A stretch of DNA of 64,000 nucleotides, taken from NCBI GenBank assembly GCA_032622095.1, contig CP136068.1, positions 160,599,465-160,663,464 of the forward strand, in the 5' to 3' direction. The position numbers and the translations under genes were made by a program. Source of the DNA: Siphonodentalium dalli. Lineage: Eukaryota; Mollusca; Scaphopoda; Gadilida; Siphonodentaliidae. The notes below the pieces were generated by a model. The model did not search any database. It had not been told where the DNA came from and was given only the letters and a program-made list of their open reading frames with translations. Shown piece by piece: positions 3,644-28,030 of the stretch. Numbering within the stretch: position 1 is the stretch's first letter; every line of letters begins with the position of its first letter.

Positions 3644-3877
3644 CAGTAATGCCCTAAATAATCAACTCCTTAACCACAGCAGAATTATGGGTAATTTTTA
3701 CTGAGAGCTTTCCGATGAATGGCAACAAGCCATATTTCCAACTAAATCCTAAAAAATTACCCATAATTCACTGAGAGCTTTCCGATGAATGGCAACAAGC
3801 TATATTTCCAACTAAATCCTGAAAAATTACCCATAATTCTGCTGTGGTTAAGGAGTCGATTATTTAGGGCATTACTG
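3644..3877. mobile_element. Pogo-like MITE (TA target site), copy 1
   Basis: The terminal inverted repeats begin CAGTAATGCCCTAAATAATC and continue through the CTCCTTAACCACAGCAGAAT segment. TA dinucleotides flank both sides (3642-3643 and 3878-3879). A CAGT start with TA duplication is typical of the pogo branch of Tc1/mariner. There is no transposase. The centre carries an internal duplication of a segment with GAGAGCTTTCCGATGAATGG, once at about 3701 and again at about 3772. A second family member lies at 27817-28030, beside the satellite. Confidence 0.8.
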
Positions 3878-4370
3878 TACTTGACCTACTATAAAAATAA
3901 TTTGTTTAACCACAGTTTTGTTGATATTTTACTCAGAGTTCCACCTGTCACATGTAAATTATAGAAACACGGTTAACAGGTAAATCAGAAACACGGTTAA
4001 CAGGTAAATCAGAAACACGGGTAACAGGTAAATTATAGAAACACAGTTCCACCTGCACTATTATTTTGGTCTGCACTTTTAATATCTTTCAATGGAATTT
4101 CCCCCTGCACTGTTATTTGGAGCGTGAGAGTGGCTAGTTGATGAACTGCACCTTGTACCAAGCGTGTTAGAGCAAGAAATTGGTTAATCGCTATATAAAA
4201 CTGGTCATTATTATTATATTATTATTATGGATTTATTACCACATGTGTGTACCATAGACAGCAGAATGTCATCATAGGCTAATTAACAGTCTGGGTGAAC
4301 GTCGACACTATATTTGAAATATAGAGTCTGGAGCTTATGTCGCCAAAACCATTTCTATTCAGCGAAGAGC
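3878..4370. other. Intergenic stretch with a ~25-bp minisatellite and CTGCACTNTTATT motifs
   Basis: From about 3961 to 4048 a unit of roughly 25 bp is repeated about four times, with core GAAACACGGTTAACAGGTAA. At 4048-4120 the motif CCTGCACT-TTATT recurs. It resembles the CCTGTAC-NTTATT motif at the ends of the TIR element at 23491-26899, so a fragment of that family is possible. An ATT-rich run lies near 4208-4229. No coding sequence is seen. Confidence 0.4.
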
Positions 4371-5201: not shown

Positions 5202-5500
5202 TTTTCCGAAGACCTATTACTACGAAGGCCCACAACTCCGAAGACCCGATTCTCCAACGGCCCACAACTCCGAAGACCCGATTCTCCGACGGCCCATAAC
5301 TCCGAAGGCCCGATTCTCCGACGGCCCATAACTCCGAAGATCCGATTCTCCGAAAGCCCATAACTCTGAAGGGCCGATTCTCCGAAGACCTATAACTCCG
5401 AAGACCTATAACTCCGAAGGGCCGATTCTCCGAAGACCTATAACTCCGAAGGCCCGATTCTCCGACGGTCCGATTCTCCGAAGGTCCGATTCTCCGAAGA
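5202..5500 (-). repeat. CCGAAG/ATTCTCCGA minisatellite, left arm
   Basis: Short units of about 18-20 bp alternate between two subtypes, CATAACTCCGAAG and CGATTCTCCGA(A/C)GG. The reverse-strand frame through it gives repeated GxxELWAxGESG-like peptides, a shadow of the repeat rather than a gene. Confidence 0.85.
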
Positions 5501-5545
5501 TTTTGTTTTATCGGGGTATTATCGTTTACTAAATAGTGTACAGTC

Positions 5546-5739
5546 CAGTGGCGAAGCCAAGGGGTCCCAAAATTCCCACTGCCCCCATTAAACCTCTACT
5601 TGCTATTTCAGACAATATGGGCCCCTACCAAAACATGTCCAATGTCATGTAAACGCCCGGAAATCGTTCATGGGGCATCAAAATATTCAAACTTTTCCTA
5701 TACTGCCCCCACCTAAATGGGAATCCTGGCCCGCCACTG
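5546..5739 (-). mobile_element. CAGTGGCG-MITE, left mirrored copy
   Basis: It runs from CAGTGGCGAAGCCA at 5546 to GGCCCGCCACTG ending at 5739, with imperfect terminal inverted repeats. Reversed, it aligns with 5891-6177: both share TTCCCATTTAGG, CGTTTACATGACATT and GACATGTTTT. No independent target-site duplication is seen, consistent with both copies coming from duplication of the larger palindrome. The CAGTGGCG start suggests a hAT-type MITE, but this is weak. Confidence 0.65.
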
Positions 5740-5890
5740 ACTATACACCAGATACTATAACGTTACGTTGGCCCATGAGATGCCAGAGTAAAATGTACAG
5801 GGGTGAACGGGGAAGAACTTGTCACCCCTGTGCATGTTAGGCTACTCTGACATTCTTGCAGCGTTTCGTTATAATATACCCGGTGCACAC

Positions 5891-6177
5891 CAGTGGCGGA
5901 GCCAGGGTTCCCATTTAGGGGTGCACATTAATTAGCATATGTGGGGGATATGTGGTGGATATATCATGCATATGATATGCCGAAAGCATATCACGAAGGC
6001 CTGATTTGGGGAGCGCATACATGGGAGGGGTCGCCCCCAATCGTTGGTCCGGGGGCTCCCCTGGGCAGGAACACTGTGAATATTTGAATGCCTAGGAAGG
6101 ATTTCCTGACGTTTACATGACATTTGACATGTTTTTTGGGGGCGGTCTTCCCAAGGGCCCCATTGACCCCGCCACTG
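5891..6177 (+). mobile_element. CAGTGGCG-MITE, right mirrored copy
   Basis: It starts CAGTGGCGGAGCCAGGG and ends CCCCGCCACTG. It is about 90 bp longer than the left copy because of extra sequence after GGGGTGCACATTAA, including a short palindrome around ATGCATATGATATGC. No coding capacity. Confidence 0.65.
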
Positions 6178-6210
6178 GACTGTACACTATTTAATAAGCG
6201 ATAAAACCTG

Positions 6211-6436
6211 ATCTTCGGAGAATCGGACCTTCGGAGAATCGGACCTTCGGAGTTATAGACCTTCGGAGTTATGGGCGTTCGGAGTTATAGGCCTTCGGAG
6301 TTATGGGCTTTCGGAGTTATGGGTCTTCGGAGTTATGGGATTTCGGAGAATCGGGACTTCGGAGTTATGGGCTTTCGGAGAATCGGAGAATCTGACCTTC
6401 GGAGAATCGGACCTTCGGAGTTATGGGTCTTCGGAA
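6211..6436 (+). repeat. CTTCGGAG minisatellite, right arm
   Basis: Units such as CTTCGGAGTTATGGG and CTTCGGAGAATCGGA are the reverse complement of the left-arm minisatellite. The two arrays differ in unit order and number, as expected for independent unit gain and loss after the palindrome formed. Confidence 0.85.
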
Positions 6437-6633: not shown

Positions 6634-7015
6634 CCCTTTACCCAACAGAAGGGCCCTGTGCCAATGCATTCTCTTATATATGCGAGTCGACCATAGGTCG
6701 CCTCGCATATATAAGAGAATGCATTGGCTTAACACATTAAAAATTATAAAATTGTTAAAGAATGTAAGAAAAAATGGTAAAAAAAGATTTTTTTTAGGCC
6801 AATGCATTCTCTTATATATGCGAGGCGACCTATGGTCGACTCGCATATATAAGAGAATGCATTGGCACAGGGCATAACTGTAACTATCACAATGTGGTCA
6901 AGGAGCCGGTTCCAATGATATCCATATTTGTATGGTTCTATTGAGACAGACCGAAGATATTTTAGGCTGTTGAAGCTTTATTTGACCGGTTTTGGCCGGT
7001 TTGTTGGGTAAAGGG
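6634..7015. mobile_element. piggyBac-type MITE with TTAA target duplication
   Basis: A TTAA at 6630-6633 and again at 7016-7019 flanks inverted repeats CCCTTTACCCAACA at 6634 and TGTTGGGTAAAGGG ending at 7015. TTAA duplication with a CCC start is diagnostic of piggyBac-like transposons. The 382-bp interior has no transposase, so it depends on an element elsewhere. Inside it is a 221-bp inverted repeat with two hairpins, described separately. Confidence 0.85.
6653..6873. repeat. Pair of exactly reverse-complementary 67-bp palindromes
   Basis: Segment 6661-6727 is a hairpin with a 26-bp stem starting CCAATGCATTCTCTTATATA and a centre around GACCATAGGTC. Segment 6799-6865 is its exact reverse complement. 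The match extends through GCCCTGTG on the outside, giving ~75-bp perfect arms around a 71-bp A/T-rich spacer. The sequence can therefore fold as two small hairpins or one long one. Confidence 0.9.
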
Positions 7016-7206
7016 TTAATGCAGAAAAATATTTACACTTTGCTGCCTTTGAGAAATCAGTATCTTCCAACTCCAAAAGACAAACAAAAGGCAGCCATGC
7101 AGTTATGTTTATAAATGTAATTAAAATGTAATGTGAATGAAATGCAAAAAATGTTGCATTACTCCTTACTTTGTATGACTTCAAAAAAATTAATGCATTA
7201 ACATTA

Positions 7207-7229
7207 CCCCCCCCCCCCCCCCCCCCCCC
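7207..7229 (+). repeat. Poly-C tract, 23 bp
   Basis: An uninterrupted run of 23 C. A second C-rich run lies at about 7460-7476 (ten C, T, five C). Such runs can form G-quadruplex/i-motif structures and are prone to length errors in sequencing. Confidence 0.9.
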
Positions 7230-9675
7230 ATCCATGATTCTGACTCAATCTGAGACATTGAAAGGGCTTTTTAATTTTTTTTATGAATATTATTACAAAA
7301 ATATAAAAAGATTTTCTTTAGAAAAAAAATTAGGGTATGGCTTAAAACAGTGTCGGTTGGGAAATTCCAACCACAAATATTTTCTTCTTTGGCCTATGGG
7401 AATATTGGCCGGGGGAAAGGGACTCTATCAGAAATTTAGAAATTGTTTACACCGATGTGCCCCCCCCCCCTCCCCCTCTGTAAAAAATATATGCATGACA
7501 TTAGGAAAGCATTGAAGGGTTAACTCTGGTTATCAAAAAACACCAAAGTGAACTTTGTAAGTGCACATAGTAATAATCAGGAACTGTAATTAAGAAACCA
7601 TATATGTCTATATTTAGCTCTGTCTCATCCAGGTGCATTCTCATTGTCGCAACAAACACCGACACATCAAAGTTTTCTCTACAACCTAAATATAGCTCTG
7701 CTGACTGCAGCCGCCAATGTTTGGCCTAATTATAATCAAAACGTTTGTCACTCGGGCCCCTGTGTGTATTTCTACGAAAATTAGTTAATCTGATTATCCT
7801 CACCAAAACAACAAAAGGTGGCTGTTAATTAATCTTTTTATCTGACTTGAGTGCAAGCTGACTTAAATTTGGTGATAGTTTTCTTGACTTATCAGCATCT
7901 GCTAAAAGTGACACAGAGACGAAAAACAGCACACGCGTAAAATGTACCCCGCCGATGGACGTCTGTCATCGGCATTTAAAAACCTCCAAAAAGACACACA
8001 ATTACACTGGAAACGTCTCAAACAAATACCAGATATATCATTAATGACACCCGAAGAACAATTTATCACTGACATTTAACCTGTGTCTGTTTTAAAAACG
8101 TTTTTAAATTATCAAAAATCATCTAATTAGTTATGCAAATATTGCGGCCCGCAAGTGCGTCTGACTGAGAGTGACTCTGAGAGACAGACAGACGAGGAAG
8201 AATTATACCACATGTTTGGCGGCTAATAACATAAATTATTTTAATGGCACCTACCTCAGACATCACGAAGTTTAGAAGAAATATCCTATCTCTTTATTGA
8301 TATACCGCTATAAGATGTGATGTTCCGATTTTTCATGAGAAATATTGAAATTTTGTCCCGTTCGTGAAGTCTTGTTTTGTGGCCGCTTTCCTTGTATACA
8401 AATGAAATCTTACGCATGGGTCAAGGTCACGCGAATGACCCCGCTTTAATATTTGTTTTAAAAATCAATTTCAAACGTTTTTGTGTCAAATTTTCTATCG
8501 TAGACCACAAAGTATGCAATTTAGAACGTTGTCTCATTCAACTTGGTAGTATTTTGAGGTATTAGTAGCGAATAGTTGATACACGAAATTTTGTTTATCG
8601 CACCATATGACAGTCGGCCAGCTTTGTAAACAATGGCGAGTTTGGGCCACGTGGGTAGCGAAAACACCTGTAAAAACAAGACGGGCGCATTGTTCCGAGC
8701 TCAAAACGGTCCTATCATCAATAATGTTACATTTCTTAGTCATTTATCTTGTCGTTGTGTGATAAAACTGTTCAGTTTTGCTGTTAAAGCAAAGCATATA
8801 CTGAACAAGAATGTCTTGTTATTGATCTTGAAAATTGGGGCTCTCAGTGGGTTGACAGGAAATGTCAATTCACTTCTAAGACAGAATATTTCATGACACC
8901 GCTCGATTTCATTCAATATTTCCTTATTAGAAAAATCATTTACATTAATATTGGAGACCCGGGCACCCTTGACCAAACTGTTATCGTTTTGTGTCGGCTT
9001 TTTTGGGTGTTTATGTTTTCGGAATGTGTCGCTCAGGGTCGCAGATGAATTAAATCTCCTGCATTGGTCCTTCGCATCGTTTGCCGGTTCTGAAGAGTGT
9101 GACCCAGTTTTGCGTTGTTTGTTGGAATCTTGATGGCAAAAAGGATTTTTTTTAATTAAATTATATAAATATGATTGCTCTCATATAGTCGACAGACATC
9201 ACACCATGACACAGATCACAGATATTTAATTTGTTTAGGTCGTTGTCAAAAGTTATAAATATTCCACAAACAAGAAACCACAAAGAGTGTGTGTACGTGA
9301 ACTAAATTAATATGTATGATTTTAAGTCAGTATTTTTTCAATTAATTTAAATTATTGCAAATAATTTGCTGACTAGTAATAATTGAGTATATATTCAGTG
9401 AAATGCAATTCATTGCTTAGACTTAAATTCAATTGTCTTTATCAGATACGACTATTCAAATATACCGATACTTTAATACATAAATTAATGTATGCTTGTG
9501 TGACTATGTTCACTTTATGTGGAAATATTTGACTAATAAATGTTGTCTAAAAACAACACATTTACCAATAACTACTGGTTGGAAAATCATGCTACATGTA
9601 TGAGAATAATTTCAACCTATTTTGGTGTTAAAAGTTTCAACTTTTGAATTTTTTTACGAATGTTGGTGGGTGAGA
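7230..9675. other. Long stretch without a supported gene or repeat
   Basis: No tandem or long inverted repeat was found here, which sets it apart from the surrounding sequence. The 8100-9130 part is richer in CpG and in protein-like short frames. One begins at 8633 with AACAATGGCG, a fair start context, and runs 87 codons, but no family is recognised. TCAAGGTCA at about 8419-8427 matches the extended nuclear-receptor half-site and is followed six bases later by TGACC. These may be remnants of host gene sequence, but nothing is firm. 9140-9660 is plain AT-rich DNA. Confidence 0.3.
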
Positions 9676-10444: not shown

Positions 10445-11459
10445 CTCGTCGATTAATAATTAGTATATAAAGTGTTAACTCTATCAAGCCGTGCATAGAT
10501 TAATATTTAGTATATAAAGTGTTAACTCTATCAAGCCATGCATCGATTAATATTTAGTATATAAAGTGTTAACTCTATCAAGCCATGCATCTTGGGGTAG
10601 TTTATCGAGAATTCGATTAATATTTAGTATATAAAGTGTTAACGCTATCAAGCCATGCATCTTGGGGTAGTTTATCGAGAATTCGATTAATATTTAGTAT
10701 ATAAAGTGTTAACTCTATCAAGCCATGCATCTTGGGGTAGTTTATCGAGAATTCGATTAATATTTAGTATATAAAGTGTTAGCTCTATCAAGCCATGCAT
10801 CATGGGGTAGTTTATCGAGAATTCGATTAATATTTAGTATATAAAGTGTTAACTCTATCAAGCCATGCATATTGGGGTAGTTTATCGAGAATTCGATTAA
10901 TATATAGTATATAAAGTGTTAACTCTATCAAGCCATGCATCTTGGGGTAGTTTATCGAGAATTCGATTAATATTTAATATATAAAGTGTTAACTCTATCA
11001 AGCCATGCATCTTGGGGTAGTTTATCGAGAATTCGATTAATATTTAGTATATAAAGTGTTAACTCTATCAAGCCATGCATCTTGGTGTAGTTTATCGAGA
11101 ATTCGATTAATATTTAGTATATAAAGTGTTAACTCTATCAAGCCATGCATCATGGGGTAGTTTATCGAGAATTCGATTAATATTTTGTATATAAAGTGTT
11201 AACTCTATCAAGCCATGCATCTTGGGGTAGTTTATCGAGAATTCGATTAATATTTAGTATATAAAGTGTTAACTCTATCAAGCCATGCATCTTGGGGTAG
11301 TTTATCGAGAATTCGATTTAAAAATATTTAGTATATAAAGTGTTAACTTTATCAAGCCATGCATCTTGGGGTTGTTTATCGAGAATTCGATTAATATTTA
11401 GTATATAAAGTTTTAACTCTATCAAGCCATGCATCTTGGGGTAGTTTATCGAGAATTGG
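10445..11459 (+). repeat. 70-bp tandem repeat array, ~15 units
   Basis: The full unit contains GATTAATATTTAGTATATAA, AGTGTTAACTCTATCAAGCC, ATGCATCTTGGGGTAG and TTTATCGAGAATTC. The first two units are about 47 bp and lack the TTGGGGTAGTTTATCGAGAATTC part. The remaining thirteen or so are 70 bp and more than 95% alike. The penultimate unit has a small insertion (GATTTAAAAATATTTAG). The low divergence implies recent expansion. Each unit has a TATATAA stretch and a GTTAAC site. No coding potential. Confidence 0.9.
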
Positions 11460-12589
11460 ATATCATATGTTGAGGTCTTGACATTCACATGTCCGACCGA
11501 AATCGACCAATGGGCTGAGAATTAACTGCACGGATCGGCCATCTTTTACATTCCCGGGCCGCCGGTGCTATATATGCTACGTTATATATAGGCTATGCTA
11601 TTACTACTGTAATATTGGATAGCGGGCACATGGGACTGCGGGTGTTATTTTCATAAAAAAAAATTGGGATTTGGGGGAGGGTCATCCGACAACGCCATTT
11701 TTTATGCGACCGAAATCGGAAATAGGGCTGAAAAATGACATAGTTCGGTAAATTCCATCGCACCACCTAACTTTCCAAATGATACGTACCACAAGCTGTC
11801 CAACTGATACGTACCACAAGCTGTCCAACTGTGTGGAATATCCAACGTATAACACACACTCATTATATCATATACGTTTGGAAATTTTCCAACTGGTGGC
11901 CATTCCAGTCCGCAAAGTTGACCGAAAGTGAGGCCATAAACAACAATAATGTGTTGGATAGCAAATCGAATTATATATCGGAATAATTTCAAATAATGTT
12001 GGTCTCAAAATATTCATCTTATGTTGTGTCAGGCATGAAATGGCCAAATGTTAAAATGTCCCTGTCCCTGTCTGCATGAACTGTGGAATCACGTTACCAA
12101 AATCTTATAAACACTATATATACGCGGTGATAAACCACCCCATTTGATTTGGGAAAATTTCAACCTATATATTATATAGTTCAAAACGCCAACGTTGCGA
12201 CATTAATTTGAAAAGTTTCACATCGGTTTAAATTTATTCCCTGAGTATCCGTGAGATGCCAGATAAAAGAAACTGATATTTTCGAAAATAATTCCCAGGA
12301 TATTCGTAGTATAGCCTCTCGAATAGGCACAGGACGGGTTTGCATCTTATCGCCAATCTTTTATTAAAATATTCAACAGTTGGAAATTATATGGGTGATA
12401 CAACATAAGTTTGAAATTTCACACAAAAACAGGTTAGTGGGGAAATTGTTGTTGCAGCAGTCATATATTATTGGCTGACCATCAGTTAATAAATATTTAC
12501 CTTTCAAGGCGGCTGTCCACTTGTTTGACTTGTTCCTCCATTCTCTCGAATACTACGCTCTTTAAAACACTTCTCCAAATATGTCCGTT
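11460..12589. other. Unassigned sequence with a small duplication
   Basis: A 24-bp duplication with CAACTGATACGTACCACAAG occurs at about 11775-11835. GACCGAAATCGG-like words occur at 11504 and 11706. No TIR, no protein-like frame of note and no known RNA is seen. Confidence 0.3.
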
Positions 12590-12812
12590 ATTTCGTCACA
12601 GACACTTTTTCAAATATCTCCGTTATTTTGTTTATAAAAATAATTTCATATTTCTATATTTCGTTCTATATATTTCGCCCTATTTCGCTATTTCGCTGTA
12701 TTTTCCTATTTCGATTTTTCGTTCTATTTCGCTGTATTTTCCTATTTCGATTTTCGATGTATTTTCCTATTTCGCTTTTTCGTTTTATTTCATATTTCGA
12801 TAATTCGCTATA
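12590..12812 (+). repeat. Pyrimidine-rich minisatellite (TATTTCG)
   Basis: Irregular units built on CTATTTCG, TTTTTCGTT and GCTGTATTTTCCTATTTCGA make a strongly T-rich strand. A repeated ~45-bp block is visible twice at about 12691-12780. The phenylalanine- and tyrosine-rich frames here are artefacts of the repeat. Confidence 0.7.
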
Positions 12813-12855
12813 TTTGACATATTATGGAATATGATATTATATGATACCCTATAAT

Positions 12856-13309
12856 CACAGTGGATCAACGGACACGAACCAAAACCGGAAGTCGTAGATT
12901 TCGAGGTGGAGAAATATCTGTCGACAAATATTTGTTGACATTTTTTGACGGTTTTTGGGGGAAATAAACGCTTGGATACCATATCTGACCATCTGAAGGT
13001 GAGTGAATATTTCTTCGCTAATGTTCGGACACCGACGATCAATTTAAGTCAGTTGCCATTGTTCGATCGCGGAAAAATGTCATTTAATCATCGCCGCGAG
13101 ACGATTTCTTCCCCAAAATATCCCAGAAAATCATACTTTTCACATTCATCGCAGACAACTGTCGCAACAACCTCTACACCGATCGAAAGGCCTGTTTTCC
13201 CCCCCACAAATGCATATTTTGAGTATTTTCACGGACTGTCTCAAAATTCCAAATTTCATCTTTTGATGTAGGTACCCACCTCGAAAATACTGTACTGTCC
13301 GGTTAGTCC
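12856..13309 (+). repeat. Left terminal inverted repeat of the CACAGTG element
   Basis: About 454 bp, including a short internal palindrome AACAAATATTTGTT-like at about 12921, GAAGGTGAGTGAATATTTCTTC and GACGATCAATTTAAGTCAGT. Open frames in this arm mirror frames in the other arm and are not taken as genes. The right arm differs by scattered substitutions and very small indels, implying an old but not ancient insertion. Confidence 0.85.
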
Positions 13310-15445
13310 CGAAAATTTTAATCATTAGTTGTAAAAAATCTGTCCGCTTAGTCGTGATTTTGCTGAGGTCTGCCATCTTCAATTTCTGGTCGAAAAAGCA
13401 ATTTTGCCGCAGATGATGGGCGTTTCATTTGACTTTTGCGTGGCCACAATGGTTCTGGGTGTTCTTAATGTTGTATAACGTCTCCTGGTACAACATAACA
13501 TCCAGGCGGTGACTTATATATATAACTGAACTGTAACCTGTTACTGAAATCCAACTACGAAGTACATGTTTGGTAAACATATAACTGATCATATTGTTAA
13601 CTCTGACTTGTCATCACTCTCGGAAGGCCGACATAAAAAAAATGATTTACATCGAACTTTAAAAAAAAAAATGCAGCGGTGTGCCGATTTTTATCCTTTA
13701 TATTTGATTATACACTCGCAACGAGTTGTGGCACACAACTTGTGGGGTTATACAGGAAGCAGCTTGTTCGTCCTTTCGTGGATGCAATTTTCCGAGTTTT
13801 TGTTCCTAAGTTTTGCGGTCATTTGTTTTTTTGACTTGGCATATATATATTTAGTACCATGGGAACATGCGAACATATATGATTATAAAATATGTCAGAC
13901 CTTTTTGTGTGGAGTTATATGACATTTTGTTCAATATTCAGCAATGGTTAAAACAATTAATGAGGAGGGGACTAAAACATACAGTCGGAGGGGTGTACAG
14001 ATATATGTTACTAATATTAGCTTAAAGGGGTACTGTACCCCAATTTCAATAAATTCCCGGTGACAATAACGATCTAATATGAATATTATATTATAAAATA
14101 ACTAATTTGAGTCGACAATGTCTACTGAAAACGTTCCGGTTAACAGGCTATCGTAAAAGTAATATTGAATTATTTAATATAAATTCATTTATGGCTGGAG
14201 TCATAAAATGGAGAATTATGCCATTACGAGTTACCGTTCTTGAAATCGCATATGTTGCGTGTCTTTTATCGACGGCCGTTCGCGAACATTATTGAGTTGC
14301 AAACAAAACATGTTACCTGCAAAAGAAGGCCCGTTATAACCGATTCGGAAAAAAAGGAGAAAGACACAAGAGTCATAAAGCGTCAAGTATTTAATAGGGA
14401 GTGAGATTGTTCGATGGAAGAGATTGAATGCATCAATCGAAGCTGTGAGCAATGAACTTCCGGTTCTTCCTGCGACCTGCGTCTTCTCCGGTGAAGGTCA
14501 AAAACATGGCGCGTAGTTTGAAATCGTAATATTTTTGTTTCCAAGATCAACATTTTCTTCGCTAAAAATTAGGTTTATACGAAACTCATATAACACGAAC
14601 ACAATCTAACTCGAAAGTTATTTCAATCTCAGTCAGAGTATCCTTTGACTAACGGCAGCCATGTTGGACGCCATGTTGGATCCTGAATTTTGCACAAAGC
14701 GGATTTTAGCGGATTTTGGATATGTTATACACGAGATTCTCCAACGTCGAATGACACCAAAGCCGCTTCTTTACCAATTTATTCTGGGTCTAACCCTCCG
14801 ACGACCACACTACTAAGCGATATTATTTTATAATTCCAGGTGCTACTGACGAGAGGATCGCATGCCTGCCTTCATATGTAACCACTGTGAGGCAAAGGCT
14901 TGCGGCTTCGCTGAGGCAATCGACGATGGGATTTTACAACACCCGAATGAATGTTTGAAAATAAAATTATTGAAAATAAAAAATATAAAAATTATATATA
15001 ATAAAATACTATACAATACTATACTATACAATACTATACGAAATATGGGTACTCTCGGTTGATATAGAGAATAGAAACATCATCAGGAAAACTCCAGTGT
15101 TATTTCGAGTTGTTGTATTCTTAATCCCACCTTGGCTGTCCATTAATGTAGAAGTGTTGTGTTTCCTACATGTATATAGCAGGTAAAATTCCAATCTATA
15201 GCGTACAACTGAATGTGGAACCAGATGCAAGTTATTTTGTAAATATATAGGCACGTGATTTTTGTCCTGTTGTATTCAAATCGCGCCATAATTAATTGTT
15301 TCCACATTGATTCACACACTGGATAATTTGGTTGTGAATTTTTTAACGCAAATGGTCGCGTATATATTGAAATTTAAGCGGACACAAGACATGCAGACAG
15401 ACCCTACTCGTTCATATATATATAGACAAAAAATTAACTGTATGG
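13310..15445. other. Interior of the CACAGTG element, no supported gene
   Basis: Several frames of 60-118 codons occur, but none shows a transposase catalytic pattern or other family. AAAGGGGTACTGTACCCC at about 14024 is a short perfect hairpin. GCCATGTTGG occurs twice at about 14658 and 14670. A frame at 14862 reads MPAFICNHCEAKACGFAEAI with a CxxC pair, preceded by an acceptor-like ATTCCAG, but it runs into AT-repeat sequence. An AT-rich stretch with (ATACT)n-like units lies at 14957-15043. Confidence 0.35.
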
Positions 15446-15469
15446 GAGGTCAAATTCACATTTAATAAT

Positions 15470-15575
15470 GAATTGCGCTTAAGCGCATATACCACATATC
15501 GCACTGAAGCACACATATGGCATTTGCGCATAATTGAAATCAATTGCGCTTAAGTGCAATTAATTGCGATTAAGC
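15470..15575. repeat. Cluster of AATTGCGCTTAAGCGC palindromic motifs (first)
   Basis: Three to four partial or complete copies of a ~21-bp palindrome based on AATTGCGCTTAAGCGCAATT occur, for example at 15473, 15541 and 15561. Another half copy is at about 16242. The same motif forms a larger cluster at 17654-18050. Confidence 0.75.
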
Positions 15576-15664
15576 GCTATCAGTTGCTTGAGAGTAAGTG
15601 TAACTACCCATTTAACCTAACTATTAGCATGACCGGGTGTATCTGCATTTGGCTAATTTAAACT

Positions 15665-16062
15665 AAAGGTCCTCAATCCGATCAGAAAGACCCATATTAT
15701 AAAGATACAACAACAACAACAACAACAACAATATTTCTTCAAAATAAGCTTTAGTTATCAGAATCGATTAACTGCAAAAAATAATGCTGACCACTGTCAA
15801 CTATGGTATCAAATTTCCCAAAAACGTGTGATTTATAAACATTTTGTTCAACAAAATATGGCCGTATAATTACTAATGTATCACGAAATTTTACCGTATT
15901 ACCACTTGTTTTAGAGTTTTCCATCTTCATCCGCAATTTTTACCGAAACCACCCTTTTCACGGCGTGTTTCTGGGCAGCAATCAATTGAAATAACAAACT
16001 TCAATAATCGATATCTGATCACACTTGAGCTTTGATGGGTTGGTTCCTCGACTCGACTAAAA
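15665..16062 (+). repeat. ~400-bp direct repeat, copy 1
   Basis: Shares with 18198-18605 the landmarks TTAGTTATCAGAATCGATT, ACCACTGTCAACTATGG, AGAGTTTTCCATCTTCATCC, AATCGATATCTGATCAC and GGTTCCTCGACTCGA. Identity is roughly 80% by eye. It contains a (CAA)n microsatellite at 15707-15731. Both copies follow a cluster of the GCGCTTAAGCGC palindrome, so the duplicated module includes that cluster. This copy lies inside the CACAGTG element and the other lies outside it. Confidence 0.8.
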
Positions 16063-16442
16063 CAGAAGGTAATACTGTCGCGAGTCGCCCATTTTGATAA
16101 AGAATTTAGGCTAGTTCACAATCCCATCTACGCAAAGCAATGAAAACAAGGAGGTGATAGTTGTCAATATCAGTTCAGGTTTAGTTATGGATACACCTAT
16201 TTATTCACCAGGGGTACATAGTTACATACAGTATAACCATGAATTGCGCTTAATCGAAATATGGGTGGGTGCCTGTAGTTTAAAACATAAAGGGGTGTAT
16301 ATATACCAGAAAAATGTAGTTAAAACTTTATACAGTCGTAATAAAAACTCGCGTGGTGGGTCCCGAAAGTGGCCATAATGAAAAAGAACAGCCATGGGTC
16401 CCGATTTGTTTTTTCTGAAATTAATCGAATTTTAATTGTTTT

Positions 16443-16664
16443 TTAAGTATCAAATTTCACGCTATATACTGGCTGAAATACCAAACTATTGGAAAATACA
16501 TCTACATCTCCCACCATCAAAACAATCCTGTTGCTATGGCCTTGGTCATGGAGGGCATTGTAATATTCTTGTTCTAACAATATTTCCATAAAGGATTCTT
16601 TGGTTAATGACCTTACACGATCTGAACGAATATATGAGAACAAATTGCAAACTGTACTCGGTAA
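16443..16664 (-). CDS. Possible exon remnant inside the CACAGTG element
   Basis: On the reverse strand a frame open from 16664 to a TAA at 16443 reads protein-like sequence including SLTKESFMEILLEQEYYNAL and RIVLMVGDVDVFSN. There is no ATG at its start (the first in-frame ATG is internal, residue ~26 of this frame), so it would be a terminal exon or a fragment. No family is recognised, and it does not resemble a RAG1 or Transib catalytic core. Chance cannot be excluded. Confidence 0.15.
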   Translation of the reverse strand, partial: LPSTVCNLFSYIRSDRVRSLTKESFMEILLEQEYYNALHDQGHSNRIVLMVGDVDVFSNSLVFQPVYSVKFDT

Positions 16665-16830
16665 CTAAACTTGATCAGTATACTATAGTTGCAACAGAAA
16701 AGCAGTTGCCCAAAAACGTGCCACTGTTAACGAAAGGCAGCCGACCAACTAATCCATTTCGACTCTTTGATTGAACAACAAAAACTGTCCGCCGGGTCTG
16801 GTGGATTGCAACTAAATTCATGGGTGTACA

Positions 16831-17278
16831 GGACTAACCGGACAGTATTTTCGAGGTGGGTACCTGCATCAAAAGATGAAATTTGGGATTTTGAGACAGT
16901 CCGTGAAAATACTCAAAATATGCATTTGTGGGGGAAAACAGGCATTTCGACCGGTATATAGGTTGTTGCGACAGCTGTCTGCGATGAATGTGAAAAGTAT
17001 GATTTTCTGGGATATTTTGGGGAAGAAATCGTCTCGCGGCGATGATTAAATGACATTTATTCCGCGATCGAACAATGACAACTGACTTAAATTGATCGTC
17101 GGTGTCCGAAAATTGGCGAAGAAATATTCACTCACATTCAGTTGGTCAGATATGGTATCCAAGCGTTTATTTTCCCCAAAAACCGTCAAAAAATGTCAAC
17201 AAATATTTGTTGACAGATATTTCTCCACCTCGAAATCTACGACTTCCGGTTTTGGTTCGTGTCCGTTGATCCACTGTG
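16831..17278 (-). repeat. Right terminal inverted repeat of the CACAGTG element
   Basis: Reverse complement of 12856-13309, starting inside at GGACTAACCGGACAGTATTT and ending CCACTGTG at 17278. The inner limit is where GGTTAGTCC-type similarity stops on both sides. Confidence 0.85.
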
Positions 17279-17283
17279 ATAAT

Positions 17284-19559: not shown

Positions 19560-19778
19560 GTTCAATATAGGGCCCGACGAATCGGAAAATTCAACATAGA
19601 ATCGAATCTCGAATCGAATCATGGTTATGATTCGAAATCGAATCGAATCTCCATTCGAATCTATTGCCAACACTCGAGGCAGATTTGAGGTATATATTCC
19701 CAGATTCCGGATACCATATCGGTATTTAAGTATGCTTCAAAAGCGTCGGTATTGACGGAAAGTAAATATTATAATTAA

Positions 19779-20734
19779 GGATCCGGGCCCACTCGCCCCA
19801 GGGCCAGCTCGCCCCAGGCCGTTTTTGGGGCGAGCTGGCCCACCTTTCAGGGGCGAGCTGGCCCGGGTATTACATTTGTATTAAAGTTGTAAATAAGTTA
19901 ATATATATTAATATATTAATTTCTTAAGTTCAGATTATGATATATTTCAGAGTTATGTCCATCAATTTTGACATTTAGATTACTTTAGCCACGTTTGTTA
20001 GCAAAGATAATAGCCATGCAGTTTATCACACTAGTTGGTTTGAACGACGAACCGGCGAATTCATAAATAACAACAATGAACTGTTTTCACATTCTGGATA
20101 TTAAAGTTTCTCTTATTCTCTGAGTTCATCTCACTATCTCTGGAGTTTGGGAAACCATTAGAAGCCGTTAGTATATCCCCATTCATATGATATCCTATCA
20201 AAACAATAGAAGCAGGTTGTTTACACAGTAACCAATCGACTAATCACACTTCACAGGATGAGATGGCTTCAGTGTGATAGATAATCACTTTCATATGCCG
20301 ACCACATACCGTATATAAGCAGTGCAATATTTATCTGACATCATAACCACAAATATGTTCCGTTGTATCTGCGACTATATACAACGGCAGTGGCTCGACT
20401 CAAGTCATTTTCGATCGAGGAATGGAGTATATTCCGACATGACGTTCGGACAAATAATGATCTCGAATGTTTGTATATTTAATTCAACATTCCAAATTCA
20501 ATGATACACATCTTGGGTCTCAGTTGACCGATTTGGGTATCACTTTGTATGGTATCACTTGACTCGGGTATCACTTGACTGTAAGTCAGAGAAAGCAAGC
20601 AAAACAACCCCAAAACGACAACTTAAATAAGACATTATCCCTTGGGGCGAGCTGGCCCGGGGCGAGCTGGCTCGGGGCGAGCTGGCCCAGGTCGACTGGG
20701 GCGAGCTGGCCCTGGGGCGAGTGGGCCCGTTTCC
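19779..20734. mobile_element. hAT-like element C nested in A (8-bp duplication ATAATTAA)
   Basis: ATAATTAA lies at 19771-19778 and again at 20735-20742. The termini are inverted repeats GGAWMCGGGCCCACTCGCCC. Next to each end is a short tandem set of GGGCGAGCTGGCCC units (three or so on the left in both orientations, five on the right). Such subterminal repeats are typical transposase-binding sites in hAT elements. The 956-bp element has no transposase. It inserted after element A, because it interrupts A. Confidence 0.9.
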
Positions 20735-20742
20735 ATAATTAA

Positions 20743-21428
20743 ATGTCGATATTAAAATTTTATAAAATACATGTCTATTTTGTGTGTTTATCGCCAAAAA
20801 CTCCCTAATAGAAACCATTTGTAGACATGCAGATTGCAGAAATAAGTGTTAATTGTAGGAATATCGCAAGCAATCCACCAATTTGGATAGCTTGGTAAAT
20901 CCTGTGTCTATAGTCTATATATTATATTATATCATTATTATGATCTGAATTCTATGTTTCCTGAATCTGAATTTCATTTAAGAATAAAAACAACAAAAAG
21001 ATTAAATGAAACAAATTATTTATTTTCAGAATAATAACATGAACGTTTATAATTAATTAAACTGTTACTGAGTGTCTGTTGCCCACTCATTTGGAATGAG
21101 ATTATTATTATTATCCTCGATGGGTGGTGGTGTATCTATCGGATGGGGAATGTTACCCGAGGGGAAAGATATTTGATAATTTGAGCCAGACACGAGGTTT
21201 GCCGAGTGTCTGGGAAAAAAATATTGTCCCGAGGGTGAGATTTTACCATCCCATGCACACCAGTCACTCATGCACCCAGGATGATGTTTCTGCCCCCAAA
21301 TCGCTCATGTCGCCAACTCGCCATTCTAACATTATCAAAATGTTTGTGACAAAACTAATAACTTGCAAAAACTTGGTCAAAAGTACAAATTTGGTATGTA
21401 ACAAAGGTATATATTTGAAAACAAACTA
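20743..21428. other. Interior of element A with a possible reverse-strand terminal exon
   Basis: On the reverse strand a frame ending at 21065 (start candidate 21271) reads protein-like residues including SPSGQYFFPRHSANLVSG and a C-terminal IEDNNNNLIPNEWATDTQ. An AATAAA follows on the same strand about 40 bp after the stop (near 21023), as expected for a 3' end. The underlying DNA has a CCCGAGGG word repeated twice, so low-complexity origin is possible. It is not a recognised transposase piece. Confidence 0.2.
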
Positions 21429-21802
21429 CCCCGCTGGACAAAACAAGTGTCCATTGGCACCGCGGTGTATTTGCCGTTCGGTCGCGGTGTCAGAGTTTGT
21501 AACTGCAGTTGAGCACCGCGGCCGAACGGCAAGTACACTGCAGCCGAGCGGCAAGTACACCATGGCCGAAAGGCAACAACAACCGGCCGAATGGCATGTA
21601 CATCGTGGTTAGATTTCGGGTTTGTATCATCTTTTTTCAGTTTAATGAACGTACACCGCGGCAACTACACCATGGCCGAATGGCAAGTACACCGCAGCCC
21701 AACTGTTGTTAGCCGGTGGAGCCACAGTGTAGTTGCATTTCGGCCGCGGTGGCAACGCTAACCGTACCGCGGTTAAGTGGACACTTGTTTTGTCCAGCAG
21801 GG
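21429..21802. mobile_element. MITE D with ACCGCGG minisatellite core
   Basis: Inverted termini CCCCGCTGGACAAAACAAGT and ACTTGTTTTGTCCAGCAGGG are flanked by TA on both sides (21427-21428 and 21803-21804). The core is a ~20-bp minisatellite with GCCGAAYGGCAAGTACACC, present in both orientations and GC-rich compared with its surroundings. No coding capacity; the frames through it are repeat translations. Confidence 0.75.
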
Positions 21803-22925
21803 TAACTGATACAGCGTATAGAGATAATAAATAATTGAGTCCGTTAGAACATTTAGATATTCGGATTCAAAGCAAAGAATCAAGTCTGCTCGTTAAATTC
21901 GAGCGAAGAAATATTCAATGAGAAATTTATGTTGCTATGACAACCTATAAATTTCAATTAATATTGAGTTACTTTTATGTTATACATTTGCAATACAATA
22001 CAATTAATGTTAATGTATATGATGGACACATGCATTTTGCAGAAACGCCGAACTATATACATTGTGTAGATCAACAGCAATCGTGTGGTTTGGTTATTGG
22101 TAACGCGTAGAATTGGGTCAAATAAGATGTATATATTTCCAGATGAAGTTGTTTTGTGTGGAATACCCAGTTAGACATGCAATTAACAAGCTGAAACTTA
22201 TTACATGTACATGTACATTCATTTAATGTTCGTCACACATATTTCTGTTCGATTACATTTTAACATTTTATTTGAAAAATGACACCTTCGATGTGTGCTT
22301 TCGTCAATCGAGTATGCAAATGTGACAAGTCATGTGAGACAGACACCACATGCTCATCCGAGGTAGGAAATTCCACTTAGCAGTCTTAGCTATCTCACAT
22401 GACTTCATATGGGCACGCTGGATTAGTGGGGGAGAAAGAACGATCTATTTGGCAACTTACCCTACACGTTGGACACGGCGGTCGTGGATTATTGTTAACT
22501 ATTTGGGGAGAATGCGGGCGATAAAGGACTTTTATACAACGATTCGAAATATCCCGAATCACACGACCGCTTTCAAATCGAATCGAATTGGGTAGCAAGA
22601 TTCGAAATCAAATCGAATCTCGAAGCTTCGTCGGCCCTAGTTCAATATAGGGTCCTGCGAATTGGAGATTTTGATCGAATCGAATCGAATTGAAGAATTC
22701 GAATCGAATCGAATATCGAATCGAATTATACATGTGTGTTGCATTCTCAATTAGGCATGTTTTGCCAATGATTAGATGATGTTTGAAACGTTCTATGAAC
22801 TTCCATGAAGTTCCATCATAACTTATGTGGCGATCAACCGTCGATCGCGATACTATTAACTTCAATTGATTATTGTCGAGAAGAAAGAAAAACAGATCAA
22901 AACGTCCATCCGGACGTCACGACGA

Positions 22926-23276
22926 TTAATATATAACCGGCCTATTGGAACTAAAATCACGAAAAGTTTGTACAGTTTGCATGTGCATGCAAAATTGCAA
23001 ATGGGCATTCGGAAACACCCGTTGTTGTAAACTTGAAGATGCAACAACAGTAGCCTGTTTATGTAGTACTGGGTGCTTCTGGAACTGATGATTCCATAGA
23101 TGGGTCATTGTCCCAGATGCTTGCGATTTATACACCATGTTGTATTCGTCACACATGTAAGTTCTCACACTGCCTGAGAAGCTTATCATGTTTAAAATAA
23201 AAATGAATAACGGACGACTTATTGTCAAGTGCCAAAGGAACTGACAGTCAACTTCAAAAGAAAACTCCACCAACAT
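22926..23276 (-). pseudogene. hAT transposase N-terminal fragment with degenerate BED zinc finger
   Basis: The reverse-strand frame from 23276 is 116 codons. Residues 42-69 read CDEYNMVYKSQ followed by ASGTMTHLWNHQFQKHP. This fits the BED finger of hAT transposases (C-x2-C, then a SGT...L..H segment and H-x3-5-H). C42, H63 and H68 are present, but the second cysteine position (45) is tyrosine, so zinc binding would be lost. BED fingers bind the element's terminal DNA in hAT transposases. The conserved catalytic and dimerisation parts are absent, as only ~280 bp remain before the element's end at 22648. The residues before the finger are hydrophobic and may be non-coding. The position inside a TIR element with an 8-bp duplication supports the assignment. 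Confidence 0.55.
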
Positions 23277-23810
23277 GCACTTTCGACCCCTGAAACACGT
23301 GAAGTTTACATCATCAACTATGTCACATACAAATAACGCAGAACCTGAGATAGACAGTCGGCGGATAACGCTAGCAGTTGCTCAGTCTCATAGTTATTAT
23401 AATTTACATGCGTCGTCGGTCCAACTGCGATTTCAGAGCTTTTGGCAACCATGTTTTAAAGCTATAATTCAGACGTATTTAGTGGTCCTACTCTTGAGTG
23501 CCTAATAAACATACATGTACGATTATTAAAATTGAGGTAAAATTCCCACCTGTACGATCGTTATTTGGTCCTGTACGTTTATTAAATTAACCAAAAGAAA
23601 TAATTCACCAATCTTAAATTGTGTTATTTATAGATAAATGAACTCTGATTGTTGACAGTGATCAGCACACTGTAGATTCACTGACCTGGCTATCCATCGA
23701 AACTATTTCTGTCACATGGCATCAGTAAACCAGTCAGATGGTGCGTTTTGTTGGGATGTATGGTTACTAATATTTCCAGTCTGTACGTTTATTCCGCCCT
23801 GTACTATTAT

Positions 23811-26800
23811 TAGCTCAACTTTACTTTGTACAGTTTGAGCTATTGCCATGGCTTGGTATCCGGTCGTCTGTGCGTGTGCGTGTGTGATTCGTCAACAATT
23901 TCCTTTAGCACGGGCTACAGTTCGTACCTTTCATCCGATTATTATGAAATTTGTCATGGATGTTGACATTGATATGTAGATGGGAACGAGTTATTTTGGG
24001 GTCATTCGGAAAAAAAACATGGCCGCCATCGGCCATCTTGAATTTTAAAATTCAATCCATTAGCACGGGCTACAGGCCGTATTGTTCGTCTTATTGTCAT
24101 GAAATTTGTCATGGATGTTAATATTGACATGTAGATGGGAACGAGTAATTTTGGGGTCATTCGGCCAAAAAACATGGCCACCGGCAGCCATCTTATATTT
24201 TACTCTTTGCATGACTAAATCCTTTGACAAGGGCTACAGGTCGTACCTTTGGGCGGATCATCATAAAATTAGTCATGGATGTTAACAATGACATGTAGAT
24301 GGGAACGAGTCATTTTTGGGTCATTCGGGCAAAAAACATGGCCGCCAGCAGCCATCTTGGATTTTACTCTTTGTATGACTAAATCAATTAGCACGGGCCA
24401 CAGGTCGTACCTTTAGTCTGATCATCATGAAATTTGTCATGGCTGTTGAAAATGGAATGTAGATGGGAACGAGTTATTTTGGGGTCATTCCGACAAAAAA
24501 CATGGCCGCCAGCGCCCATCTTTGATTTCAAAATTTATTTCATTAGCATGGGCCACAGGTCGTACTGTTTGTCTGATCATCATGAAATTTGACATGGATG
24601 TTAATATTGACATGTAGATGGGAACGAGTAATTTTGGGGTCATTCGGCCAAAAAACATGGCGCCAGCAGCCATTTTGGATTTTACTCTTTGTATGACTAA
24701 ATTCTTTAGCACGGGCTACAGGTCGTACCTTTAGTCTGATCATAATAAAAAATTTCATGGATGTTAACAATGATATGTAGATGGGAACGAGTAATGTTGG
24801 GGTCATTCGGCCCAAAAACATGGCCGCCAGCAGCCATCTTGGATTTTACTCTTTGTGTGACTAAATCCTTTAGCACAGGCTACAGGTCGTACCTTTAGTC
24901 TGATCATCATAAATTTTGTCATGGATGTTAACAATGACATGTAAATGGGAAAGAGTCATTTTGGGGTCATTCGGCCGAAAAACATGGCCACCAGCAGCCA
25001 TCTTGAATTTTACTCTTTGTATGACTAAATCCTTTAGCATGGGCTACAGGTCGTACCTTTAGTCTGATCATCATAAAATTTATCATTAATGTTAATAATG
25101 ACATGTAGATGGGAACGAGTCATTTTGGGTCATTCGGCCAAAAAACATGGCCGCCAGCACCCATCTTGGATTTTACTCTTTGTATGACTAAATCCTTTAG
25201 CACGGGCTACAGGGTCGTACCTTTAGTTTGATCATCATTAAATTTGTCATGGATGTTAACAATGGCATGTAGATGGGAATGAGTCATTTTGGGGTCATTC
25301 GGATGAAAAATATGGCTGCCAGTGGCCATCTTTGATTTCAAAATTCAATCCATTAGCACGGGCTACAGGTCGTACTGTTCGTCTGATCGTCATGAAATTT
25401 GTCTTGGATGTTAATATTGACATGTAGATGGGAACAATTAATTTTGGGGTCATTCGGCCAAAAAACATGGCCACAGCAGCCATCTTGTGTTTTACTCTTT
25501 GTATGACTAAATCCTTTAGCACGGGCTACAGGTCGTACCTTTAGTCTGATCATCATAAAATGGATGTTAACAATGACATGTAGATGGGAACGAGTCATTT
25601 TGAGGTCATTTGGCCAAAAAACATAGCCGCCAGCAGCCATCTTGGATTTTACTGTTTGTATGACTAAATCACTTAGCACGGGCTACAGGTCGTACTTTTA
25701 GTCTGATCATCATAAAATGAATGTTAACAGTATGTAGATGGGGACGAGTCATTTTGGGGTCATTAGGCCAAAAAACATGGCAGCAATCTTGGATTTACTC
25801 TTTGTATGACTAAATTCTTTAGCACGGGCTACAGGTCGTACCTTTAGTGTGATCATCATAAAATTTGTCAGGGATGTTAATATTGACATGTACATTAGAT
25901 GGGAACGTGTCATTTTGGGGTCATTCGGCCATAAAACATGGCCACCAGCAGCCATCTTGGATTATACTATTTGTATGACTAAATCATTTAGCACGGGCTA
26001 CAGGTCGTACTTTTAGTCGGATCATCATAAAATGGATGTTAACAGTATGTAGATGGGAAGTTGGGAACGAGTCATTTTGGGGTCATTCGGCCAAAAAACA
26101 TGGCAGCCATCTTGGATTTACTCTTTGTATGACTAAATTCTTTAGCACAGGCTACAGGTCGTACCTTTAGTGTGATCATCATAAAATTTGTCATGGCTGT
26201 TGAAATTGGAATGTAGATGGGAACGAGTCATTTTGGGGTCATTCGGCCAAAAAACATGGCCGCCAGCGGCCATCTTGCATTTCAAAATTCAATCCATTAG
26301 CACGGGCTACAGGTCGTACTGTTCATCTGATCATCATGACATTTGTCGTGGGTGTTAATATTGACTTGTAGATGGGAATGAGTAATTTTGGGGTCATTCG
26401 GCCAAAAAACATGGCCGCTGGCAGCCATCTTAGATTTTACTCTTTGTATGACTAAATCCTTTAGCACGGGCTACATGCAGGTCGTACCTTTAGTCTGATC
26501 ATCATAAAATTTGTCATGGCTGTTGAAATTGACATGTAGATGGGAACGAGTGATTTTGGGGTTATTCAGCATTAAAACATGGCTGCCAGTGGCCATTTTG
26601 GATTCTACTCTTTGCATGACTAAAGCTATCAAATGTTTTTGAATTGTTGGAAAACATAGCCACCAGCAACCATCTTAGATTTTACTTTTATATACATGTA
26701 TATATATATCTTTTCATGTTGATAAACTAGTATTAGACATTCAACTTTCCACATTCCTAATCACTCCATCGACAGTAACACATTAAATTATTCCCTTTCC

Positions 26801-26832
26801 AAGTTGAGCTACAGTGTCATTGACACTTTCAT
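23811..26832 (+). mobile_element. HINE/pearl-like (Helentron-derived) element, copy 2
   Basis: It starts TAGCTCAACTTTACTTTG, followed by a GAGCTATTGCCATGGCTTGG segment and a TG-rich microsatellite. Then come about 16-17 tandem ~165-bp units. It ends with AAGTTGAGCTACAGTGTCAT and the terminal hairpin ending at 26832. Ends and unit sequence match copy 1 (1196-2780) in opposite orientation; this copy has about twice as many units. No target-site duplication is visible, as expected for Helentron-type insertion. No protein is encoded. Confidence 0.8.
23908..26625 (+). repeat. ~165-bp tandem array inside HINE copy 2
   Basis: About 16-17 units share AGCACGGGCTACAGGTCGTA, GATCATCATAAAATTTGTCA, TGTAGATGGGAACGAGT, TTTTGGGGTCATTCGGCC, AACATGGCCGCCAGCAGCCA and TCTTGGATTTTACTCTTTGT. 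Some units are shortened in the ATGGATGTTAACA part (for example near 25558, 25716 and 26033). Two subtypes differ after the GCCATCTT word (TTTTACTCTTTG or TTCAAAATTCAATCC) and are interspersed. Confidence 0.85.
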
Positions 26833-27173
26833 TCAGTTACGCGACATTTTCCAACCTGTACTATTATTCCACCCTGTACTTTTATTAGGCACTCAAGAGT
26901 ATAAATCTGGTGGCTAATTATTGGCCATAAATATATTTAATAGCATGCGTACATTCGTGATGTACAATAAGAATTATAAAGCGCACATATTCATAATTTT
27001 AGGGAATTAAATGGCACAGAAACAGCTAAGATCGACGTGTGTATGTGTTCGTAAGCAGCTAATAATTTCATCCATATATATTCGAAATTTCGAGTTGGAA
27101 ATTTCGACTCGAATTCGAATCGAATTTGACTTTTGAATCGAATATTGAATATTCGCAGGACCCTAGTTCAATA

Positions 27174-27816
27174 TATTTAGCATGCTCAATTATTACACAA
27201 TTGCTCCAAGCTGATTGATGCTTAACCATAATTTCATTGGTGTTCATTCATGTGAGTAGTAATTAATTAGTTTTACTACGGCTTGATTTCACTGGGGTTT
27301 TTTGAGTCATTAATTGATTTGACCTCACAAGAGCTGGACCAACATTGATTTGAGAGTGACTGGCTTTAAAGCCAAAAGATTCAATTATGATATTACATAA
27401 ACAGTTAAACTGCAAATTTTCATTAGCCATTTCGCCAAAATAACATGATTCATCTCGTAAAAGTCTTAAATGTTTGTCATATAATTGAAGAGAATAAACT
27501 TTTCTTTAGTTTAGTAAATTAGAAAAACTACGTTCACATGGTATTGCACCTTACAGTAAACTGTTAGGTGACATTATATGTTATATCCAAAGCGACATCA
27601 TATAGACACACACATTTCCCTGTGAAAGTTATTGATGTTTTGCTGGCATAGCACACAAAGCAAATCGCAATTAACATTCCAGAATAATGAGTAATATGTT
27701 TCAAAATAAATTGTATCTGATTTTAATTAAGAACACGATGACCACTGTGCAGTGGCAATATACGCAAGAGAAATTCATATATGGTTGCCATTTTAAACAA
27801 ATAGTATATGCATATA
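27174..27816. other. Unassigned AT-rich spacer before the satellite
   Basis: No repeat, TIR or protein-like frame was found between the right target duplication of element B and the MITE at 27817. Confidence 0.35.
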
Positions 27817-28030
27817 CAGTAATGCTCTAAGTAATCGACTTCTTAACCACAGCAGAATTATGGGTAACTTTTCAGGATTTAGTCGGAAATATGGCTTGTT
27901 GCCATTCATCGGAAAGCTCTCCCCGAGAGCTTTCCGATGAATGGCAACAAGCCATATTTCCTACTAAATCCTGAAAAGTTAACCCATAATTCTGCTGTGG
28001 TTAAGAAGTCGCTTACTTAGAGCATTACTG
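27817..28030. mobile_element. Pogo-like MITE copy 2 abutting the satellite
   Basis: An almost perfect 214-bp hairpin begins CAGTAATGCTCTAAGTAATC and ends in its complement CATTACTG. TA dinucleotides lie at 27815-27816 and 28031-28032. The centre is CTCCCCGAGAG, flanked by CTTTCCGATGAATGGCAACA and its complement. Same family as 3644-3877 but without that copy's internal duplication. The first satellite unit begins at 28034, leaving only the TA and one further base between the two. Confidence 0.85.

Follow-up and report, generated by a model that had tools for sequence, protein, structure and literature searches.

How two different transposons come to lie end to end, sharing one copy of a target site, is the question raised by positions 19560 to 27173 of a 64,000-nucleotide stretch of DNA (the window, to which all coordinates below refer) from the scaphopod mollusc Siphonodentalium dalli (assembly GCA_032622095.1, contig CP136068.1, positions 160,599,465 to 160,663,464 of the forward strand). 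Here two hAT-like elements, A and B, alternate with three copies of an 8-bp word, and the explanation that we consider very probable is that two non-autonomous hAT-like transposons with related ends inserted successively at a single target.

The word GTTCAATA is found on the plus strand at 19560-19567, preceded by AAAG of the left flank, at 22640-22647, and at 27166-27173, followed by TATTTAG of the original flank. These are the positions given in an earlier interpretation of the locus made from its letters alone (the sequence-only reading), and the window word search agrees with it. Element A (3072 bp, plus strand) fills the interval between the first and second copies (19568-22639), and element B (4518 bp, plus strand) that between the second and third (22648-27165), both bounded by TAGGG...CCCTA as had been proposed; the middle copy, recovered by word match and by a flanking-repeat scan, adjoins the right end of A and the left end of B and is common to both. 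As a word GTTCAATA is not rare: 2.71 occurrences are expected in shuffled versions of the 64-kb window and at least four were present in 24 of 100 shuffles, against four matches in the real sequence, the fourth of which (13929) does not adjoin a TAGGG/CCCTA end. The exact abutment of the remaining three of the four (19560, 22640 and 27166) to such ends is far from chance, two random 8-mers of this composition agreeing with a probability of about 2.4e-5, and a chance origin is thus ruled out by position against the ends rather than by word frequency. When the whole window was scanned for exact 8-bp repeats directly flanking a [TC]AGGG...CCCT[AG] pair at a spacing of 60-8000 bp, three rows only were returned, one each for A, for B and for the outer ends. 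The three copies in fact share 10 bp, GTTCAATATA, because both elements, like the right flank, start with TA.

The terminal inverted repeats of A were located by end comparison at 19568-19581 (TAGGGCCCGACGAA, plus strand, also recovered by a pattern scan) and 22627-22639 (TTCGTCGGCCCTA, minus strand), and those of B, likewise by end comparison, at 22648-22662 (TAGGGTCCTGCGAAT, plus strand) and 27151-27165 (ATTCGCAGGACCCTA, minus strand). The two ends of A match at 13 of 14 positions once a one-base gap is allowed, and those of B at all 15 of 15, so that each element keeps both of its own ends. Between the elements, the left ends agree at 15 of 20 positions and the 13 bases GTTCAATATAGGG are identical at both, whilst blastn of A against the span of B aligns only the end repeats; judged by these comparisons, the ends of the A and B families are related. 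YAGGG is the consensus of hAT terminal repeats, and TAGGG stands at all four ends, in repeats of 13-15 bp. An ungapped end pattern allowing at most one mismatch matched positions 1-28030 only at A left, B left and B right, A right being missed by ungapped scans because of the one-base gap; the only other near matches to TAGGGnCCnnCGAA in this interval are two, at 5285 and 5317, each with two mismatches and both within a tandem repeat. The 8-bp target duplication is the other hAT feature that the locus displays, and the hAT element hobo has a modal duplication length of 8 (PMC3276498).

Both elements had also been credited with subterminal repeats, and AATCGAAT is indeed present at all four ends. 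Motif counts place it at A left (19599-19661, starts at 19600, 19612, 19636 and 19641), A right (22576-22619, starts at 22576, 22581 and 22611), B left (22675-22726, starts at 22678, 22683, 22702, 22707 and 22719) and B right (27115-27143, starts at 27118 and 27136), always on the plus strand, the right-hand repeats of each element having the orientation of the left-hand ones. Expressed per 200-bp end (19568-19767, 22440-22639, 22648-22847 and 26966-27165), the counts are four, three, five and two; 14 of the 16 plus-strand copies in 1-28030 are thus inside these four ends, with two elsewhere. These ends contain no reverse-complement copy, and the shorter word TCGAATC gives a weaker bias in the same ends (14 against 3, i.e. 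14/17). The subterminal repeats therefore mostly keep one direction at both ends, where the terminal repeats are inverted, and A and B are oriented alike. Such same-direction repeats are not what would be expected of inverted transposase-binding ends. Twelve reverse-complement copies of AATCGAAT are found at 10611-11385, within a 70-bp tandem array. When end and subterminal motif were combined in one pattern, its only matches in the window were the left ends of A and B, and 100 shuffles gave none.

The history suggested by this anatomy would begin with an empty GTTCAATATATTTAG site. A first insertion would have duplicated the 8-bp target GTTCAATA, and the second element would then have inserted into one of the two resulting copies, again with an 8-bp stagger, leaving three copies of which the middle one is common. 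Two orders would produce this outcome: A first, with B entering the right-hand copy, or B first, with A entering the left-hand copy. We infer such a sequential history from the structure, and the proposal that the second element entered the duplication made by the first stands as the simplest reading, backed by the end comparison; the order is left undecided by the data, the single gap in the ends of A and its absence from those of B hinting that B is the younger whilst being too little to decide. Since the ends are similar and the subterminal repeats shared, one transposase, or two close relatives, probably moved both elements.

Several results weigh against this account. Pfam was searched with eight of the ten reading frames of at least 110 amino acids outside the 57-bp satellite described below (one in A and one in B, the frames at 7141-7515 and 12438-12803 being left out) and with ten further stop-free pieces among the longest of A (seven) and B (three), pieces from the array in B and shorter pieces being set aside. 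In the resulting 12 stop-free pieces of A (eight) and B (four) no transposase domain scored above cut-off; the ten further pieces gave one sub-threshold match (PF21517, E 0.15). Because no such domain was present in the pieces tested, hAT membership of A and B is argued from anatomy alone, on which basis we regard it as likely, and both elements look non-autonomous. Apart from the 164-bp array in B, blastn at E up to 1e-4 revealed no second copy of A or B in the window, so that their boundaries are read from this one locus. The target itself also departs from those described for hobo and Hermes. Hobo prefers a 14-bp palindromic motif with the core GTNCGNAC that reaches beyond the 8-bp duplication (PMC3276498), and by eye GTTCAATA matches this core at three of six specified positions. 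The consensus nTnnnnAn, described for Hermes (PMC2803484) and also given for hobo from earlier studies (PMC3276498), is likewise not matched, GTTCAATA having T at position 2 but T rather than A at position 7. This consensus describes a tendency rather than a strict requirement, because some of the listed Hermes targets deviate from it, individual targets without A at position 7 including e.g. TTGGAATA (PMC2803484).

Whether the target was actively sought bears on a stronger form of the argument, compatible with successive insertion, in which the transposase prefers a duplication lying beside an end of its own kind and so over-produces tandem pairs. We think this improbable. In its favour, each insertion re-creates the 10-bp GTTCAATATA, because both the elements and the original right flank start with TA, and this re-creation could favour re-use of the site, as judged from one locus only; the reach of the hobo palindrome beyond the duplication points the same way. 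If A came first, moreover, the copy entered by B is complementary at three of seven position pairs over 14 bp, compared with two of seven for the target reconstructed by joining the flanks. If B came first, however, the copy entered by A is less symmetric (one of seven), and about 29% of 20380 surrounding 14-mers have at least three of seven complementary pairs, so that a score of three means little. The present-day copies score one (left), four (middle) and three (right), the middle value reflecting the element end on either side of it. The same structure would follow if a site that had already accepted one insertion were passively used again, and the evidence comes from a single locus. The strong transposase preference for this target considered plausible in the sequence-only reading could not be demonstrated, given a palindrome score of two of seven, a hobo-core match of three of six and no A at position 7.

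Nor does the finding by itself need a special mechanism. Under uniform targeting in 1e9 bases, a simple formula gives about 0.001, 0.1 and 10 expected exact pairs for 1e3, 1e4 and 1e5 copies, respectively, and each figure becomes 300 times larger if the site is preferred 300-fold; the formula was given assumed copy numbers and genome sizes, and for that reason rarity is not something that can be claimed without copy numbers.

An alternative route to the same final structure is that A and B hit the same site on separate haplotypes and came to lie in tandem afterwards, either through unequal recombination within GTTCAATATAGGG or because the assembly fused the two haplotypes. The 13 bases identical at both left ends do provide a short homology for such an exchange, but the route requires that the same 8 bp were hit twice independently, and in addition a rare exchange over 13 bp; it is less simple than successive insertion, and we consider it unlikely. 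That 19560-27173 is instead one composite transposon with internal terminal-repeat-like sequence, A left acting with B right and the inner ends being relics, was the counter-reading offered alongside the sequence-only reading; the same 8 bp does flank the outer ends in the flanking-repeat scan, but the inner ends are intact and pair better with their own partners (13/14 and 15/15) than A left does with B right (12/15), and a composite that had moved would normally have an outer duplication unlike the inner copy, so that we regard it as very improbable and reject it.

Further structures lie within A and B. Read by eye, a 956-bp element inside A (19779-20734) is flanked by 8-bp direct repeats ATAATTAA and has ends (GGATCCGGGCCCACTCGCCCC and, reversed, GGAAACGGGCCCACTCGCCCC) that are not of the TAGGG type, and an inverted-repeat element occupies 21427-21804; both look like material added to A later. 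Element B contains a tandem array of 17 copies of a 164-bp monomer (about 23805-26832), around which lies a 40-bp inverted repeat, 80% complementary (23489-23528 and 26862-26901), that may mark a further nested element. A second 164-bp array of eight monomers at 1196-2781 has the opposite orientation and shares its flanks with the array in B; by eye it apparently lacks the 40-bp inverted repeat, and a 107-bp inverted repeat of 92.5% identity surrounds it (872-978 and 2776-2882). Array-carrying non-autonomous Helentrons of oysters have monomers mostly of 140-180 bp (PMC7492417), which the 164-bp arrays resemble; this is a likeness only, making them candidate members of that group.

Elsewhere in the window, an element-like structure at 12851-17283 has inverted arms of about 460 bp with 95% identity, and an inverted repeat of about 236 bp (76% identity, 3644-3879 and 27815-28030) connects the window's left part to the DNA beside a 57-bp satellite. 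This satellite (28036-64000, about 631 copies, 96% matches) makes up more than half of the window. When 1-28030 was searched for inverted ends accompanied by direct repeats of 6-10 bp, the B pair was found, in two frames, and the A pair was missed because of the gap in its ends; ten other inverted-end pairs, located at four places (5392-6256, 6670-6856, 12935-17199 and nested pairs) were taken to be palindromic words inside inverted repeats. The sole Pfam match of the eight frames of at least 110 amino acids is a sub-threshold one to Fibrinogen_BP (14.9 bits against a cut-off of 50), outside A and B, and an Rfam search of the window gave no match.

The combined end and subterminal pattern was also sought in sequence collections of viruses and prokaryotes; these hold no eukaryote genomes, and negatives from them say little about how frequent the families are. 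One viral contig and 12 prokaryote contigs matched; in each of the 13, only one copy of AATCGAAT is present within 250 bases. None of the 13 loci has an exact CCCTA end with seven or more of eight flank bases matching, a partial result in that some loci end near the match, and blastn of these loci against A or B gave no match; we treat all 13 as chance. Scans of viral contigs for the B end and for the 164-bp array gave no match.

Exact re-use of a target by two related but different hAT families had been called unusual, a view that published accounts do not support. McGurk and Barbash (2018, Genome Res. 28:714, as referenced in PMC9659126) are credited with the finding that transposon dimers arise commonly in Drosophila, insertion-site preference being suggested from their results as the major mechanism, and the same account notes that a target duplication permits later insertion at the same site (PMC12628747); they are cited elsewhere for common head-to-tail double insertions of DNA transposons (PMC12368964). 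The A-B pair resembles these cases in its re-used target duplication, its head-to-tail order and its derivation from DNA transposons (PMC12628747, PMC12368964), and has three identical copies with the middle one common and both elements with both ends. Unlike the double insertions described (PMC12628747), the two copies are not of the same element type, A and B differing in their interiors and being related only at their ends. Same-type pairing is perhaps a feature of the cases described so far and not of the process, and the presence of two different families on one target makes this case less ordinary. Among the matches listed in a literature search whose coverage lacks most subscription papers, none described two hAT families paired on a single duplication.

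Two other systems are close. The tandem, hAT-derived miniature inverted-repeat transposable elements (MITEs) of Atlantic cod are likewise hAT-like elements without transposase (PMC12368964); they differ in that their two subfamilies are placed in one family and lie at inversion breakpoints, and the terms TSD and target site are absent from the main text on them (PMC12368964). The composite Anopheles P-MITE AgaP2-P12MITE combines the ends of two related subfamilies of a superfamily that likewise makes 8-bp duplications, and its proposed origin is from two neighbouring elements (PMC1562414). It differs in having one end per subfamily within one element, whereas A and B each keep both of their own ends.

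The A-B pair is thus an instance, with two families, of an event already known, and alone it overturns nothing. Hobo, which is classed as a hAT element (PMC3276498), is reported to have grown to a tandem run of 16 copies, and it has been suggested that satellite arrays draw their raw material from double insertions (PMC12628747). It is conceivable, if doubtful, that TAGGG...CCCTA elements at targets followed by TA rebuild a target that is as good or better, so that related families with a shared transposase chain up; were this true, the A-B pair would be the two-family seed of a tandem array. As it stands, the locus provides a base-exact example of a double insertion in which the two families have related ends and different interiors, and such pairs can reveal which non-autonomous families respond to a common transposase.

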